Under the pieces are notes generated by a model. It saw nothing but the letters and a program-made list of their open reading frames with translations. It had not been told where the DNA came from and did not search any database. Both the position numbers and the translations under genes were made by a program. Below are positions 2,264 to 19,382 of a DNA stretch of 34,777 bases, in pieces. Within the stretch, counting starts at the first letter, position 1. Each line of letters opens with the position of its first letter. Source of the DNA: Deltaproteobacteria bacterium (GTDB lineage: Bacteria; Desulfobacterota; BSN033; UBA1163); assembly GCA_016874935.1 (NCBI GenBank), contig VGSS01000020.1:1-34777 (forward strand), written 5' to 3'.

Positions 2264-3031
2264 ATGATATGGATTAGAAAATTAGGCGGGATTACGTTTT
2301 ATGGTTTGCGGGGAATGGGGCGGATGGGCCTTTTCCTTGCTCAAACCCTCTTCTGCGCTGCCACTCCTCCCTTAAAATTTTCCTGGATCATCAAACAGGT
2401 CTGGTTCATCGGATTTCAATCCACCCTGGTCATTCTCCTGACCGGAGCCTTTTCTGGAATGGTTCTCGGCCTTCAGGGGTTCTATACCCTTAACCGATTC
2501 GGCTCCACTGCACTCCTTGGCCCCATGGTCGCCCTCTCCCTCATCAAGGAACTGGGGCCTGTTCTCACCGCCCTCATGGTTACGGGAAGGGCCGGCTCGG
2601 CCATGACGGCCGAAATCGGGATCATGCGGACCAGCGAGCAGATCGATGCCCTGGAGTTGATGGGGCTTAACCCTTTTCGATATCTCATCGTTCCCAAACT
2701 GATCGCAGGAATCATTGCCCTGCCTCTTCTGACCGCCATCTTCGACGTAGTCGGCATCTTCGGCGGATATTTCGTGGGAGGAAAGCTGTTGGGAGTCGGC
2801 GAAGGGACCTATTTCGGTGAAATGGCCAACTACGTGAGGATCGAGGATGTCCTGGAGGGAATTTATAAATCTCTCAGCTTCGGCGTCATCATCTCCTGGG
2901 TCTGCTGTTATAAGGGGTTTAATTCTGGATTTGGGGCCGAAGGTGTAAGCAAGGCAACCACCCAGGCCGTGGTCCTCTCGTCGGTCCTGGTCCTTTTCTG
3001 GGATTACATAATGACTTCTCTTCTCTTCTGA
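2264..3031 (+). CDS. mlaE: MlaE-family phospholipid ABC transporter permease
   Basis: Inner-membrane permease of the Mla (maintenance of lipid asymmetry) ABC transporter, which moves phospholipid between the inner membrane and the periplasmic carrier. The 255-residue length and the family core are typical: an N-terminal amphipathic stretch, a first membrane span near residues 48-68, the conserved segment LGPVLTALMVTGRAGSAMTAE around 100-120, then EQIDALELMGLNP, and further spans up to the C-terminus. It is first in the operon and followed 9 nt later by the ATPase. The start at 2264 matches the family N-terminus, but it lacks a Shine-Dalgarno sequence and coincides with the predicted transcription start, so leaderless initiation is plausible. 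Confidence 0.93.
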   Translation: MIWIRKLGGITFYGLRGMGRMGLFLAQTLFCAATPPLKFSWIIKQVWFIGFQSTLVILLTGAFSGMVLGLQGFYTLNRFGSTALLGPMVALSLIKELGPVLTALMVTGRAGSAMTAEIGIMRTSEQIDALELMGLNPFRYLIVPKLIAGIIALPLLTAIFDVVGIFGGYFVGGKLLGVGEGTYFGEMANYVRIEDVLEGIYKSLSFGVIISWVCCYKGFNSGFGAEGVSKATTQAVVLSSVLVLFWDYIMTSLLF

Positions 3032-14371: not shown

Positions 14372-15805
14372 TTATAAATTCTTTCGAAGGATAGGTACAG
14401 CATACGGGCCTTCTCGGATGAAGGCCATAGTGGGTTCGATCCCCTTTTCCCGGTAGCGATAAACCGAAAAGAGGACCGCTTTCTGAACCATTTCATGAGC
14501 CTTTTCAAGAGAGGGTTTGATTCGTTTGCCTTTTAAAAAGTCGAGACCGCAGACCCCTGGAAGAAGGCAATAGTTCTTCCTCTCAATTTCAAGAGAGCAG
14601 TAGATCAATCCTTCCTCACCCACTTTTCTTAAAACTTTTCCCCAGACCTCGGGTTCCCATTGATCTTTAGTAAATTTCCAGCTAGGCATTTTCAATAGAT
14701 TAAGATATCCGTCCGGCCCCTGTAATTTGAGCAGGTGGATCAGACTTCGATATTCCGGAGACCCGATGGGTTCGATCAAGTCCCTGTTGTTGGCCGCGAT
14801 GATAATGACACCGCCTTCTTTCACCGCAGGAAGAGCCCCGACGCCGGCCTTTGCAGTCTGGTAATGATCCCTTCCCACATATCCGCTATGGGTGAGCACG
14901 ATATCGAACTCCTCCTTCAGAAGGATCTCCGCATAGCCCTTGATCATTTCAAAGGCCTTCAGGTTTGCCTCCTCCATATCCCCTGTGAAAATGCGGATGA
15001 GTTGCAAATCCTTGTTGAGATTGACATTGATCACAAAATCCACTCCAACCGTCCGGGCAACCTCCAGGGCCTCTTCATGGCAGGGATTTCCTTCGAGGAC
15101 GAGGTTCGTCGCATTGGGGTCTTCCAGATAGGTGGGGCCATGAAATTTCTGTATGGTCTTCACATCGACCAATCCGGGGCAGACCGATTTTCTTCCGCCT
15201 GAGATGCCGGTGAAAAAATGGCTTTCGACCAGTCCTGTGGCAATCTTCAAATCCGCAAAATAAAAGTCCCGGTTGACATAGACGTGGGTCCCTCTTCGGG
15301 TCGTCCCGATGCTCTCCAGAAGAGCCTGATTCTCGCAGTCGTGGTCCAGGATCGTATACTGGCGAACGACCTCCTCTCCATACATCTCCACCTTCTCTTC
15401 ATCAGTGCTCGGTCGGTGCATCCCGGTCGCCACAATGATCTTGACTTTCTCTCTCTTGATTCCAGAAGCCTCCAAGCGTCTCAATAATGGCCGAAGAATA
15501 CCGGCTTCCCCTTTATAAGGGACGGGCCGTGTGATGTCAGAAACCGCAATAGCAACGGAAATCCCCTCTGGAACCTTTCCTTTTTTTCGGATGATCTCCT
15601 CAAGAGAAGGACAGCCGATGGGATTTAAGAATGCCTCTTCAATCGCTTTCTGAGGATCGGATAATACATCCACCTCCTTCATGGTCAATTCAACACAATT
15701 CGGAGGCAATAAAACCTCAATGGCATTTCTACCGAATTCGACAGAGATTTTCTTCCAGCCCTGGGTATCAAATTTTTTAATTATCTTTTGGATGTCGGAT
15801 CTCAT
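14372..15805 (-). CDS. larA: LarA-family nickel-pincer-dependent racemase/epimerase
   Basis: LarA proteins use a nickel-pincer nucleotide to racemise lactate or related 2-hydroxy acids by hydride transfer. Residues match Lactiplantibacillus LarA with identical spacing: His130 in GMHRPST and His196 in VESHFFTG (catalytic pair, 66 apart, like His108/His174), Lys206 in SGGRKSVCPG (pincer attachment, like Lys184) and His222 in KFHGP (nickel ligand, like His200). DITRP at 90-94 is also conserved. At 477 residues it is about 50 longer than LarA, mainly at the C-terminus, as in several non-lactate LarA homologues, so the substrate is open. No larB, larC or larE is in the window. The ATG at 15805 follows GGGGAGGGAGG almost directly. 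Confidence 0.88.
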   Translation of the reverse strand: MRSDIQKIIKKFDTQGWKKISVEFGRNAIEVLLPPNCVELTMKEVDVLSDPQKAIEEAFLNPIGCPSLEEIIRKKGKVPEGISVAIAVSDITRPVPYKGEAGILRPLLRRLEASGIKREKVKIIVATGMHRPSTDEEKVEMYGEEVVRQYTILDHDCENQALLESIGTTRRGTHVYVNRDFYFADLKIATGLVESHFFTGISGGRKSVCPGLVDVKTIQKFHGPTYLEDPNATNLVLEGNPCHEEALEVARTVGVDFVINVNLNKDLQLIRIFTGDMEEANLKAFEMIKGYAEILLKEEFDIVLTHSGYVGRDHYQTAKAGVGALPAVKEGGVIIIAANNRDLIEPIGSPEYRSLIHLLKLQGPDGYLNLLKMPSWKFTKDQWEPEVWGKVLRKVGEEGLIYCSLEIERKNYCLLPGVCGLDFLKGKRIKPSLEKAHEMVQKAVLFSVYRYREKGIEPTMAFIREGPYAVPILRKNL

Positions 15806-15903
15806 CCTCCCTCCCCTTCGGGCAGTTCAAGATTTAAATGCGTTCACTGCTGGATTATTCCAATTTTGATAAAGATACGTCAAGGTCTTACATCTTTGGG
15901 TAG

Positions 15904-16292
15904 TCATGATAGAATGGCTTGAACCGCTTCGCCAGCGATCATTAACGCCTCTTCTACCTCCTCTTCTGAAGGCTCCACAGGCTCCCCCGGATAACGAAAA
16001 AGCCAGGCATATTCTGTAAGGGGTGCCGCTCTGTCAACAAAGGGCTTGAGGGTTATATCTTTGTCAAGACATTGCTCGCCGATTTCTTCAAGACTGTGCG
16101 TTTTTCTGAAAGGGATGTTGTGCCAGACAAGAAAAGCTTTAAAAGCCTTTTCTGTGCCTGTTGACAATGGTAGGCCACATCTCCAAGTAATGGCGGTAAA
16201 GCGGTCAGAGCATGCTCGGCAGATCTAAGATCCTGTGTTGCTTTGTTCAGCCATTCTTTGGTCTCTGAGATCAAAACAGGATCATGAGGCAT
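15904..16292 (-). pseudogene. HEPN-domain gene broken by a frameshift
   Basis: The first frame begins at the ATG at 16292 (MPHDPVLISETKEWLNKATQDL...) and runs to CQQA; the family continuation EKAFKAFLVWHNIPFRKTHSLEEIG appears in another frame and continues to a stop at 15904. HEPN proteins normally read CQQAAEKAxKAFL here; the DNA has GCACAG where GCAGCAG is expected, a one-base loss near 16152-16157. The product would be about 129 residues, the usual size. The start overlaps the nucleotidyltransferase stop by 11 nt, the usual MNT-HEPN arrangement. HEPN partners are RNase-like toxins or binding subunits; here the gene seems dead unless the shift is a sequence error. Confidence 0.8.
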
Positions 16293-16635
16293 ACAGTAAG
16301 ATCCCTTCCCGGATAACGGTTGCTGGTAGTGAGGCTTTGAGGTGCAATCGGCTCTCAAACGATTGATGAGGTAAGACCAACACATCTGCTGCAACTCGGG
16401 TACCTCGAAGCACCTGATAGGCCAAGCGGTTACGTCGTTTCTCAGGTGGAGCATTATCCGGAACAACGATCATTAAATCATAGTCGCTATCTTTGCTTTC
16501 ATCGAATCGAGCCTTCGATCCGAAGAGATAAATCCGCTCAGGTTGGAAGGCCTCAACCAGGCGATGAACGATTCCGGTTAAAATAGGGTCGTCTTGAAAT
16601 CGATTTGGACCCAACTCTTTGACGTTCTTTTTCAA
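16282..16635 (-). CDS. MNT-type nucleotidyltransferase (antitoxin-like partner of HEPN)
   Basis: A 117-residue minimal nucleotidyltransferase with the pol-beta signature GS(x)10DYD: GSKARFDESKDSDYDL at 39-54 supplies Asp51 and Asp53, and ADVLVL supplies the third acid, Asp84. Such proteins AMPylate and silence HEPN toxins in MNT-HEPN pairs. The frame starts at TTG (16635) with no clear ribosome site, and no ATG lies upstream of the domain, so initiation is doubtful. Its HEPN partner directly downstream is frameshifted, so the pair is probably decaying. Confidence 0.8.
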   Translation of the reverse strand: MKKNVKELGPNRFQDDPILTGIVHRLVEAFQPERIYLFGSKARFDESKDSDYDLMIVVPDNAPPEKRRNRLAYQVLRGTRVAADVLVLPHQSFESRLHLKASLPATVIREGILLYAS

Positions 16636-16743
16636 GGATTGAATTTCTCTGTTCTGATCTCTATGTAACGATCTTTTTTTCCTATATCATAAGGGATTCA
16701 ATTGTAAAGTCAAGTAATTTCAATCCATTTCATGGCAAACAAT

Positions 16744-16802
16744 CCCATTAGAAATTTCAGCCGCTGCGATTCAAAACCGATCTGTCCATTATTTCTAACG
16801 GG
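16744..16802. repeat. 59-bp inverted-repeat element (relative of 7115-7209)
   Basis: CCCATTAGAAAT (16744-16755) pairs with ATTTCTAACGGG (16791-16802) apart from one position. The inner part holds ATTCAAAACCG and GTCCATTATTTCTAAC, shared with the element inside the gene at 7108. Next to it GAAATTGGTCAA (about 16804-16815) and TTGACCATTTC (about 16843-16853) form another stem. The gap 16636-17072 otherwise holds only a terminator and a tRNA fragment. Confidence 0.55.
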
Positions 16803-16914
16803 AGAAATTGGTCAAAAAAGGTCTCGGTGAGAATGTTTGTGGTTGACCATTTCATCAGAGAAGATAAACTTTTTGTCTTTTAAACGGATGATGTTCAAAC
16901 AATGGCAAGAACGA

Positions 16915-16944
16915 AAAAAGGATCAGGTCAAAAAACCTGATCCT
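16915..16944 (-). terminator. Rho-independent terminator behind the tRNA-Cys fragment
   Basis: GGATCAGGT (16920-16928) and ACCTGATCC (16935-16943) form a 9-bp stem; on the minus strand six T residues follow. It lies just downstream of the tRNA-Cys 3' fragment, as the second terminator (17702-17736) lies behind the intact tRNA-Cys. Confidence 0.8.
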
Positions 16945-16956
16945 TCTATTTTACAT

Positions 16957-16985
16957 TGGAGGCGGAAACCTGATTTGAACCGGTG
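16957..16985 (-). repeat. tRNA-Cys 3'-end fragment, probable attachment-site scar
   Basis: 29 bp identical, except at two positions, to 17746-17774, the 3' end (T-arm, acceptor strand and CCA) of the intact tRNA-Cys, in the same orientation. The remaining part of a tRNA is missing. The two copies bracket about 760 bp containing vapBC and a terminator. Such direct repeats of a tRNA 3' end are typical of site-specific integration into a tRNA gene. Confidence 0.75.
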
Positions 16986-17072
16986 GCATTGAGTCTAAAT
17001 TTATGCTACCAATTCCTTAATGAGTGTGATATTATGTCAATAAATTCTTTTAAGAAAGGGAGTGGGAAAGGC

Positions 17073-17279
17073 ATGGAAGACATCGGGAAAATGATTCAAG
17101 AATTACCTCCTGAACTTCAAAAGGAAGTGGAGGATTTTGTAGTTTTTTTGAAGGGAAAAAAGGCGCGAAAACATGGCAAAAAGCTTCGCCAGGACTGGGC
17201 TGGTGCGTTAAGGGATTACCGTAACAAATACACTTCTCTTGAACTTCAGCAAAAAGCATTTGAATGGCGGGGTGATTAA
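17073..17279 (+). CDS. VapB-like antitoxin, DUF2281 type
   Basis: A 68-residue protein beginning MEDIGKMIQELPPELQKEVEDFVVFL, the pattern of DUF2281/VapB-like antitoxins, with a Lys/Arg-rich middle (KGKKARKHGKK) and a C-terminal ALRDYRNKYTSLELQQKAFEWRGD tail that would wrap the toxin. GGGAAAGGC precedes the ATG at 17073; in-frame ATGs at 16986 and 17034 would give longer forms that run into the tRNA scar. The stop is 3 nt before the toxin start. Its job is to neutralise the PIN toxin and probably to repress the operon. Confidence 0.8.
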   Translation: MEDIGKMIQELPPELQKEVEDFVVFLKGKKARKHGKKLRQDWAGALRDYRNKYTSLELQQKAFEWRGD

Positions 17280-17282
17280 ATC

Positions 17283-17678
17283 ATGTATCTGGTTGATACA
17301 AACGTCTGGCTTGAACGACTCCTGGATCAAGCAAGGGCTGAGGAAGTGGGTCAATTCTTTGATCGCATATCGTCAGATCAGGTATTTATAACAGATTTCT
17401 CATTTCACTCAATCGGAATAATATTGAGCAAATTGAACCAAAAAGAGGCATTGCTGCGTTTTGTTCAAGATGTCTTTTTAGATGGAGCTACCGGATTATT
17501 ACATCTTGAACCGGGTGACACTCAACGACTGGTTCGTACCATGGAAGATTACAACCTTGACTTTGATGATGCCTACCAATGTGTCGCTGCTGAAATACAT
17601 AATCTTACAATTGTTAGTTTTGACAGCGATTTCGACCGCACCCCACAAACAAGAAAAATCCCATCCGAAATCTTTTAA
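17283..17678 (+). CDS. VapC-like PIN-domain ribonuclease toxin
   Basis: A 131-residue single PIN domain, a metal-dependent RNase that usually cuts tRNA or rRNA. Acidic residues are Asp5 in VDTNVWLE, Asp93/95/96 in NLDFDDAYQ and Asp114/116/118 in VSFDSDFDRT. The Glu that most VapC proteins carry in the helix near residue 42 is replaced by FHSIGIIL, a variant I associate with a subgroup of PIN proteins, so activity cannot be taken for granted. It is 3 nt downstream of the antitoxin. The pair lies between two copies of the tRNA-Cys 3' end and is probably imported. Confidence 0.85.
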   Translation: MYLVDTNVWLERLLDQARAEEVGQFFDRISSDQVFITDFSFHSIGIILSKLNQKEALLRFVQDVFLDGATGLLHLEPGDTQRLVRTMEDYNLDFDDAYQCVAAEIHNLTIVSFDSDFDRTPQTRKIPSEIF

Positions 17679-17701
17679 GAGACTACAAAACTCCCCCTAT
17701 G

Positions 17702-17736
17702 CTAAAAAAAGGGATAAGGTAATCACCTTATCCCTT
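17702..17736 (-). terminator. Rho-independent terminator of the tRNA-Gly/tRNA-Cys unit
   Basis: AAGGGATAAGGT and ACCTTATCCCTT (about 17709-17720 / 17725-17736) form a 12-bp stem with a 4-nt loop; on the minus strand a run of T follows. It is placed 10 nt after the tRNA-Cys CCA end and may also stop vapC transcripts on the plus strand. Confidence 0.85.
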
Positions 17737-17745
17737 TCATTTTTC

Positions 17746-17820
17746 TGGAGGCGGCAACCGGATTTGAACCGGTGAATAACGGTTTTGCAGACCGTCGCCT
17801 TACCACTTGGCTATGCCGCC
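17746..17820 (-). tRNA. tRNA-Cys (anticodon GCA)
   Basis: Acceptor GGCGGCA at the 5' end pairs with TGCCGCC, followed by discriminator T and encoded CCA. The anticodon loop lies in GGTCTGCAAAACC, giving GCA; the T-arm has GGTTCAAATCC. Complete and apparently functional. Its last 29 bases recur at 16957-16985. Confidence 0.97.
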
Positions 17821-17823
17821 TTC

Positions 17824-17898
<75 letters not shown>

Positions 17899-17984
17899 TT
17901 TTTCTAAGGTAAAAATTAAAAGATTTGGGATTTAAAGTCAAGAGTTGAAAATAAGATGGGGAGATGGGGGAATAACAAAAAGAT

Positions 17985-18023
17985 AGTTCGGAGTGGGGAG
18001 TTCGGAGTGGGGAGTTCGGAGTG
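17985..18023 (+). repeat. 14-bp tandem repeat, 2.8 copies
   Basis: The unit AGTTCGGAGTGGGG occurs at 17985-17998 and 17999-18012, with AGTTCGGAGTG at 18013-18023, just downstream of the pgsA stop. A related, diverged stretch in the opposite sense (ACTCCGAACT) is seen near 32763-32795. Confidence 0.85.
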
Positions 18024-18033
18024 AAAAAGAAAG

Positions 18034-18597
18034 CTAAACGAGGATGGTTTTTAAAAACTTTCTAAAATAATCGATGCCCGAGAGAACGGCCAAAACCAGC
18101 GCCACCCAGAGTAGGATCATTCCGACCAGATGAAAGTCTATCCCTAAGTAGGAACCACCTAATATCAGAAAGAAGATGGAGGTCATCTCAAAGGCAGTTT
18201 TATACTTCCCGATCAGGCTTGAGGAGATAACAATCCCCTCGGAGATGGCGATCCCTCTCAATCCGGTCACTGCGATCTCCCTCCCAACGATGACAATCAC
18301 CATCCAGGAAGGAATCCCCCTTGCGGAGATCAGGGCGATCAGGGCTGTGACAATGAGGAGTTTGTCGGCAAGGGGATCCAGAAACTTTCCCAGGGTTGTC
18401 ACCATCTTCCAGCGTCTGGCCAAATATCCGTCCAGCGTATCGGTTAATGACACCAGGAGAAAGACAATGGCTGTGATGATCTGAAAGGTTTTACCTGTGG
18501 TGTAGAGAAGCAGGAGGATAACGGGAATAGCCAAAATACGAATGGCCGTCACCCCATTTGGGAGGCTTAACAGTTGCTGGTAACTCATTTTTCCCAT
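18034..18597 (-). CDS. pgsA: CDP-diacylglycerol--glycerol-3-phosphate 3-phosphatidyltransferase
   Basis: Makes phosphatidylglycerol phosphate from CDP-diacylglycerol and glycerol 3-phosphate in the inner membrane. The 187 residues have several membrane spans and an exact CDP-alcohol phosphotransferase motif DxxDGxxAR(x)8GxxxDxxxD: Asp53, Asp56, Gly57, Arg61, Gly70, Asp74, Asp78. The PgsA-type opening SLPNGVTAIRILAIPVI and the length agree with PgsA rather than cardiolipin or phosphatidylcholine synthases. The ATG at 18597 may be replaced by an ATG at 18588 (MSYQQ). It stands alone; the IS200/IS605-like remnant lies directly upstream. Confidence 0.92.
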   Translation of the reverse strand: MGKMSYQQLLSLPNGVTAIRILAIPVILLLLYTTGKTFQIITAIVFLLVSLTDTLDGYLARRWKMVTTLGKFLDPLADKLLIVTALIALISARGIPSWMVIVIVGREIAVTGLRGIAISEGIVISSSLIGKYKTAFEMTSIFFLILGGSYLGIDFHLVGMILLWVALVLAVLSGIDYFRKFLKTILV

Positions 18598-18603
18598 TGA
18601 ATT

Positions 18604-18765
18604 GAACTACCACCAGCTACAAGCGGGTGGATTCTCTACCGACTGAAGTCAGCTAAAGAAAAAACAAATCAGCACAGGAATTCTCACGAGGGAAAACCTG
18701 AAAAACCTGCACACAGTGTGAATACTAATATCTTCGCCTAAAGGCGAGGGTTTTCCTCCCCGAGT
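18604..18765. mobile_element. IS200/IS605-like palindrome-ended remnant (PATE-type)
   Basis: The left end has the imperfect hairpin CCACC(AGCTACAAGCG)GGTGG at 18610-18630 followed by ATTCTCTACCGACTGAAGTC. The right end has CGCC(TAAA)GGCG at 18735-18746 followed by GAGGGTTTTCCTCCCC. Subterminal hairpins instead of terminal inverted repeats, and the TAAAGGCGAGG block, are what I expect of IS605-group ends. GAGGGAAAACC (about 18688-18698) can pair with the right-end GGTTTTCCTC. No tnpA or tnpB fits in 160 bp, so it would be a non-autonomous or deleted copy. Confidence 0.6.
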
Positions 18766-18785
18766 GAGACAATAAGGCTAATAAA

Positions 18786-19382
18786 TCAGGGCTTATAGGA
18801 TTGGTAATAGCTCAATACTTTCCTCACATAATCTATTGTCTCTCGGTAAGGCGGGATGGATCGCAATTCAGAAACAATATTCTCGCCCGCATTGTAGGCG
18901 GCAAGCGAGAGGCGGAGGTCGTTATTAAAGAGAGAGAGGAGATGCCTGAAATAGCGAACCCCGCCATCAATATTCTCTCTTGGACTGAAGACATTTGCAA
19001 CATTCATTCGGAGGGCCGTCTCCGGCATCAATTGCATCAATCCCTTTGCCCCCTTTCTGGAGACCGCAAGGGGGTTAAATCCTGATTCGGCTTTGATCAT
19101 CGCCTTGACCAGGGCGAAATCGACATTATGTTTCTTGGAGAATTCCTCGATCAGTGAATCAAATTGGCTCTGATTCCTTATGGGTGTTACGTTGGAGCGG
19201 TTCTCCTCTCCCCTTACATCATCCCTGCTCTCCCTGATGTAGAGTTTAAACCTGGCGTCCCTCGGACAATTGGTAAAATGGATCACTCCATTTTCATCCA
19301 CCCAACGATAGATTCCCGCATAGGAAGTCCCCGCAAGCAAAACTAGGTGAATCAGGAAAATAGTGGCGATAATCAATTGCAC
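18786..19382 (-). CDS. lytic transglycosylase, SLT domain with DUF4124-like N-terminus
   Basis: Cleaves peptidoglycan glycan strands, forming 1,6-anhydro ends, in the periplasm. The proposed 198-residue product starts with a signal peptide (VQLIIATIFLIHLVLLAG), then a short DUF4124-like block (IYRWVDENGVIHFTN, about 24-38), then the SLT domain (about 75-190) with the catalytic Glu (about residue 99) in KAESGFNPLAVS, GLMQLMPET and the NAG-binding SLAAYNAGE. The GTG at 19382 was chosen because it gives a clean signal peptide and lies downstream of a probable promoter. The frame is open further to a TTG at 19457, but those codons overlap the promoter. Confidence 0.85.
   Translation of the reverse strand: MQLIIATIFLIHLVLLAGTSYAGIYRWVDENGVIHFTNCPRDARFKLYIRESRDDVRGEENRSNVTPIRNQSQFDSLIEEFSKKHNVDFALVKAMIKAESGFNPLAVSRKGAKGLMQLMPETALRMNVANVFSPRENIDGGVRYFRHLLSLFNNDLRLSLAAYNAGENIVSELRSIPPYRETIDYVRKVLSYYQSYKP

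Follow-up and report, generated by a model that had tools for sequence, protein, structure and literature searches.

The vap regions of Dichelobacter lie at tRNA genes. Elements that lack integration and transfer genes and keep both attL and attR have been described as CIMEs, decayed forms of ICEs or IMEs, with an example at the tRNA-Lys gene of Streptococcus agalactiae; in S. salivarius, classical CIMEs span 1.2–13 kb and microCIMEs, which carry no genes, 130–220 bp, and toxin–antitoxin pairs are described as common on integrated elements (PMC5704250, PMC7563491). The rules given for Islander call for an integrase gene inside the island and a length of 2–200 kb (PMC4383910), and the islands described at ssrA in Dehalococcoides are integrase-less and bounded by the 3′ end of an RNA gene (PMC3146451).

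Here, we examine an insert in a window of 34,777 nucleotides, which is one contig (C20) of the 3.05-Mb draft genome of a Deltaproteobacteria bacterium (G000, 'the host'; 206 contigs, estimated contamination 4.8%). The insert, 789 bp at the 3′ end of a tRNA-Cys gene, is an island of a known kind that is unusually small, and its recurrence deserves a count. It shares with CIMEs, as these are described, an integrated state, att-like flanking repeats, the lack of any integrase or transfer gene and a retained cargo; recombination of its ends is putative, and the likeness is one of structure, a phage ancestor being as possible as an ICE or IME. Unlike the CIMEs described in S. salivarius, it measures 0.79 kb with one gene pair and so falls between both size classes. 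A complete tRNA gene and, downstream of it, a displaced 3′ fragment of like orientation is also the plan of the islands in Islander, which, by the rules given in that source, would reject the window island because it is too short (789 bp against 2–200 kb) and holds no integrase ORF, leaving such small islands outside its view. The described Dehalococcoides ssrA islands are similar in being integrase-less, in being bounded by an RNA gene 3′ end and in their insertion at the T-loop, and differ in their tmRNA target, serine recombinase system, tandem arrangement and many genes. Among the titles and beginnings of abstracts listed in a literature search, which is weak evidence, none dealt with sub-kilobase toxin–antitoxin islands at tRNA genes. 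The case shows how small a tRNA-bounded island can be and what survives in it: in the window, as in an unrelated genome described below, the remaining content is only a toxin–antitoxin-looking gene pair.

Boundaries and gene content of the insert

The tRNA-Cys(GCA) gene (17746–17820, minus strand) was called in tandem with a tRNA-Gly gene (17824–17898, minus strand). Its last 29 nt (17746–17774, the regenerated, attL-like 3′ end) recur in the same orientation at 16957–16985 (minus strand, the displaced, attR-like old 3′ end) with a spacing of 789 bp and 27 of the 29 positions identical, just as the original prediction had described them; the best match in 100 mononucleotide shuffles of window positions 15001–19000, both strands, was 18/29. 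Identity runs from one base before the T-stem to just past the CCA, and alignment revealed no clear similarity between the flanks of the two copies on either side. Across the host genome, a search allowing up to 2 mismatches, with the two differing positions left free in the pattern, returned just these two places. Such an arrangement, a complete tRNA gene followed by its displaced 3′ fragment in the same orientation, is that of a site-specific tRNA island. The insert is also poorer in GC (40.2%) than the window (48.4%), with 18 of the 680 windows of equal length reaching so low a value. Both changes of the displaced copy sit beyond the T-loop on its 3′ side, where function was lost, and the tRNA-Cys copy is identical to the 29-mer of all 14 family relatives with a match, a pattern that fits a new copy at the tRNA-Cys end, a presumed crossover in the T-loop and a displaced host end free to drift.

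As candidate arm-type integrase sites, we considered a 12/13 direct repeat within the insert (17043–17055 and 17668–17680), which in a circular form would lie on either side of the att core; because 5 of 150 Markov-shuffled pairs equal it, the repeat is a lead at most and was rejected. Outside the insert, between the tRNA-Gly gene and a pgsA-like gene, lie three 14-bp tandem units (AGTTCGGAGTGGGG; 17985–18026, the last at 79%), a stretch to which other family genomes also show short matches.

The two adjacent ORFs of the insert, both on the plus strand, form a VapBC-like pair with predicted antitoxin and toxin roles. The vapB-like antitoxin ORF (17073–17279, 68 amino acids; DUF2281, PF10047) can also be read in a longer form (16983–17279), on which the PF10047 match, above its cut-off, was found; for most relatives listed, the alignment starts at the ATG at 17073. 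The vapC-like toxin ORF (17283–17678, 131 amino acids) holds a PIN domain (PF01850, E = 2.6 × 10−14; 54.3 bits against a cut-off of 23.6). With its DUF2281 ORF immediately preceding the PIN ORF, the pair resembles VapBC type II toxin–antitoxin systems and is a putative toxic RNase with its antitoxin; the scores fall below the NCBIfam cut-offs for TA_VapB (30.6 bits against 60) and Mtu_PIN_fam. The 87 bp between the displaced tRNA end and vapB (16986–17072) presumably contain the vapBC promoter region, and a motif scan of the window reported no promoter-like site there. In the 789 bp, the ORF list and a Pfam profile search recognised nothing besides the two ORFs and no remnant of an integrase or of any other mobile gene, which agrees with the expectation that some 0.79 kb would hold little but vapBC.

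Within a search that finds only VapC relatives sharing one of six exact peptides, the closest relatives (66–70% identity) were in Anaerolineae, Thermoflexus and Dadabacteria assemblies. VapC matches were present in only 3 of 39 relative genomes, at 42–48% identity, and the host genome holds one; judged by sequence, the pair looks foreign to the host family. Exact peptide patterns gave no confirmed match on viral contigs, and plasmids gave none. Of the 73 other VapBC loci, 1 (L139, with a partial VapC match) has a tRNA called in the sequence covered, a tRNA-Cys whose 5′ side faces the VapC match and which has no fragment. A 22/29 match to the tRNA end 2.2 kb from VapC at another locus (L091) reads as chance, not as a tRNA, and was rejected. 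Three VapC relatives (L089, L093 and L095, around position 3001) have early in-frame stops when read from the start of the match, two of them after 15 residues. A literature search found no report of VapC acting on tRNA-Cys.

An empty site in the same genus

The original prediction proposed integration at the tRNA 3′ end, with the old end displaced to 16957, and named relatives without the insert as the check. Such a relative exists: in G006, of the same genus, tRNA-Cys runs directly into the terminator found at 16916 in the window and into the flank beyond it. Positions 612–1732 of the G006 locus (L038) align in one piece (88%) to window positions 16985–15866, and positions 1–683 to window positions 18380–17706, that is, the tRNA pair and its upstream side. 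This is the empty site expected of a site-specific tRNA island, and it identifies the insert as a genomic island of a known general type and very small size. In an RpoB tree (15 genomes; G005 was excluded because its sequence is a misframed fragment, and G002 had no match), G006 groups with the host and G007 (98/96), the order among the three being open. G006 is the single relative with an exact empty site, which precise excision could also produce.

Absence of the second copy extends beyond this genus. Of 17 family genomes, 15 hold the tRNA-Cys end with no more than 3 mismatches, the host alone having it twice (one copy in 14 of the 16 relatives, none found in 2). At class level, 18 of 23 genomes hold it, again with two copies in the host only (one copy in 17 of the 22 others, none found in 5). 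A full second tRNA-Cys at 16957 in relatives, the finding that would have spoken for a decayed tandem tRNA, was thus seen in none of the 22.

The flank that the host has in common with G006 contains an MNT nucleotidyltransferase and a HEPN gene (15904–16635, minus strand). Among 14 family loci, several of which are on contigs that end shortly past tRNA-Cys, this block downstream of the tRNA is common to G006 only, and larA lies downstream in 7. The HEPN gene (15904–16466, minus strand) is split into two frames in the window and is a single ORF in G006 (L038, 1143–1718).

Terminators on both sides

Each copy of the tRNA end had been said to be followed by its own minus-strand terminator. For the displaced copy, the terminator scan bears this out (16916–16947, minus strand, read 16947–16916), and the same terminator follows tRNA-Cys in G006. 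For the regenerated end, the hairpin lies inside the insert (17708–17737) and has a perfect 13-bp stem; the scan reports it on the plus strand only, and a separate simple finder accepts it on the minus strand (17737–17708), where TTTT follows. An own terminator for the new tRNA end is therefore supported by this finder, with a T tract that is short by the rule of the scan tool; the hairpin could also serve the convergent vapC on the plus strand.

At 56% identity when aligned, neither terminator is a copy of the other: the old one matches G006 (0.87) and the new one is nearest to G009 (0.73). The exact 9-bp stem of the new terminator occurs in 3 of 17 family genomes (the host and two other members of its genus, G004 and G009), once each and always just behind tRNA-Cys, suggesting that the incoming piece carried a genus-type tRNA-Cys terminator. 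An integrated end can, it appears, bring a terminator along with the tRNA end and leave the terminator of the host on the far side, and this signature of a terminator at both ends could help to find decayed islands.

The same arrangement recurs in other genomes and is not universal. In nine fragment-bearing genomes of the phylum, the same simple finder placed a hairpin scoring at least 13 behind the complete tRNA-Cys gene in 5 of 9 instances and behind the displaced fragment in 5 of 11, compared with 28 of 1099 positions chosen at random. Terminators behind complete tRNA-Cys genes are usual in the family anyway; it is the fragments that are telling. A hairpin was found behind both tRNA and fragment in the host, G245 and G027, in G140 behind the tRNA and just one of its two fragments, behind the fragment only in G315 and behind the tRNA only in G150; the simple finder passed none behind either in G166, G362 and G213. 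In G150, the terminator lies between the regenerated tRNA end and an integrase, which suggests that the incoming end brought it, as in the window, and its absence behind the tRNA in G362 and G213 indicates that a terminator-bearing end is not the rule.

Phage DNA gave mixed results. A prophage contig (L150) adjoins tRNA-Cys with a terminator between them and is no proof of a phage-borne terminator, since its other end is missing. On a phage contig (L180), a terminator follows the 3′ half of tRNA-Cys and no tRNA was called; as this could be either a site on a free phage or the displaced end of a host, it was not counted as support. Two more phage contigs (L181 and L185) hold tRNA-Cys fragments without a terminator. 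Compared with phage records, the tRNA end plus terminator gave 3 matches, covering at most 35% of the query. A literature search on terminators carried by integrating elements found none, and we make no claim that such terminators are unpublished.

Integrases and other islands at tRNA-Cys

By our reading of the match table, at least 263 of 395 phylum genomes match the tRNA-Cys end and at least 13 match it two or more times. Fragments outside a called tRNA were present in nine (G000, G027, G140, G150, G166, G213, G245, G315 and G362), on contigs other than that of tRNA-Cys in G027, G140, G245 and G315. The second matches in G058, G247 and G390 are tRNA-Thr and that in G345 is a second tRNA-Cys, and these were rejected as fragments.

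A search for integrases with tRNA-Cys sites, suggested for the host genome, succeeded elsewhere: tyrosine-integrase (PF00589) islands bounded by the tRNA-Cys 3′ end occur in G362 (7298 bp), G150 (10976 bp) and G213 (6128 bp, with a ParE/Phd pair beside the integrase), each with its integrase next to tRNA-Cys, and on phage contig L181, where no tRNA was called, 47 bp separate the end of a PF00589 integrase ORF from the 3′ end of a tRNA-Cys. In the host, a PF00589 profile search of the genome found no integrase beside tRNA-Cys, its six matches all being on contigs other than C20. The blocks that the G362, G150 and G213 islands have in common with the tRNA exceed 29 bp, reaching back to the anticodon stem or loop, so these integrases are not assignable to the window island; on L181, by reading, the similarity to the tRNA-Cys of the host genus seems to begin at the T-stem, as in the window. 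In G213 (L189, 745–2715), the integrase ORF itself contains a second, microCIME-like tRNA-Cys fragment, 72 bp behind the tRNA.

Other vapBC cassettes flanked by the 29-mer, which the original prediction had hoped for, were not found; the 29-mer led instead to a different PIN-like pair in an island of almost the same size. In G166, an independent interval of 798 bp between tRNA-Cys and a perfect 29-bp copy contains a DUF433 ORF (81 amino acids) and a DUF5615/PIN_10 ORF (122 amino acids), with nothing else recognised; we take such DUF433 and DUF5615/PIN-like pairs to be toxin–antitoxin modules. The pair had no match in the defence library, and neither G139 nor G295 gave an empty site for the island. 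At the corresponding place, G276, a congener of G166, carries an interval of 1.1 kb that is delimited by a 20-bp copy and contains one ORF of 316 amino acids without a Pfam match; the outer flank is common to both genomes (91% over 2.2 kb). In G140 (L207 and L210; contig C203, 914–2768), two tRNA-Cys fragments, at a distance of 1.83 kb from each other, enclose a single SLFN_AlbA_2 ORF.

A survey of 145 tRNA-Cys genes, reaching up to 3.6 kb downstream (at least 3 kb for 112 of them), found a same-strand fragment in 4 (the window, G166, G213 at 72 bp and G276) and opposite-strand fragments in 0. The set surveyed is biased: G166 and G213 were chosen because they hold more than one copy, G276 because it is a congener of G166, and the host is the source of the window itself; the 117 other survey regions, taken from among the matches listed, held no same-strand fragment. 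Three loci were dropped, L225 and L281 with no tRNA-Cys called and L232 with no CCA.

Origin of the insert

Taking together the repeat and its boundaries, the empty site, the absence from relatives and the integrase islands at the same tRNA end elsewhere, we favour, with a probability of roughly 0.7, a CIME-like, site-specific island at the tRNA-Cys 3′ end that was stripped to vapBC by deletion. The island would have entered by site-specific recombination at this end, the incoming end giving the tRNA a new T-arm and acceptor end together with a terminator, and the end and terminator of the host would have moved to the far side (16957 and 16916), where the idle copy drifted. Most probably, what inserted was a larger island, or a prophage, encoding a tyrosine integrase, and later deletion left its two ends and vapBC; both the former integrase and its loss are inferred. 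The pair may have been kept through addiction, since losing a toxin–antitoxin pair is costly, and the present form, with two att-like ends and no recombinase of its own, may still behave as a cis-mobilizable element.

The G166 island, equal in size and holding a gene pair only, is a tidy outcome for random deletion and counts against such a history. Its near-identical size and plan, though without a terminator, would favour instead a 0.8-kb mobile unit of tRNA end, terminator and toxin–antitoxin pair, moved in trans by a phage or island integrase; the different insert of G276 at the same site and outer flank, and the integrases beside tRNA-Cys ends in phage and island DNA, point the same way. 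We nevertheless hold this to be rather unlikely, as no second copy or close relative of the cassette was found in the host genome, among plasmids or, with exact peptide patterns, on viral contigs, and the host has no integrase beside tRNA-Cys. In its broader form, which we put forward tentatively and with as much doubt, the tRNA-Cys 3′ end would be a landing site for non-autonomous cassettes of about 0.8–1.1 kb, each a tRNA-end module (here with its own terminator) plus a single toxin–antitoxin-like pair or gene; integrases from phages and larger islands with this tRNA as their target would move them in trans, and congeners would exchange them.

The remaining two readings have very little probability. 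A decayed tandem duplication of tRNA-Cys, with vapBC lodged between the copies later, would account for a tRNA-Cys-type terminator behind both, and is highly improbable given that no other class genome holds a second copy (0 of 22, 5 of them without any match), that G006 has one tRNA-Cys and an exact empty site, and that the fragment begins sharply at the T-stem. That the structure arose in assembly, or by illegitimate insertion beside an accidental similarity, is conceivable for a draft in so many contigs and with some estimated contamination, and scarcely credible in view of the 27/29 match, the same plan in G166 and a longest exact run between the copies of 14 bases, presumably too short for the usual assembler word.

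The six PF00589 matches of the host comprise two genes that we read from their sequence as XerC-like, one long integrase ORF and three short pieces. The two XerC-like recombinase genes (L070 and L071, on contigs C19 and C117) are very similar and may be paralogues or reflect a strain mixture. The long ORF, a tyrosine integrase of 433 amino acids on contig C18 (L072, 1295–2679), ends 6 bp from the 3′ end of a tRNA-Met(CAT) gene and probably marks a separate island.
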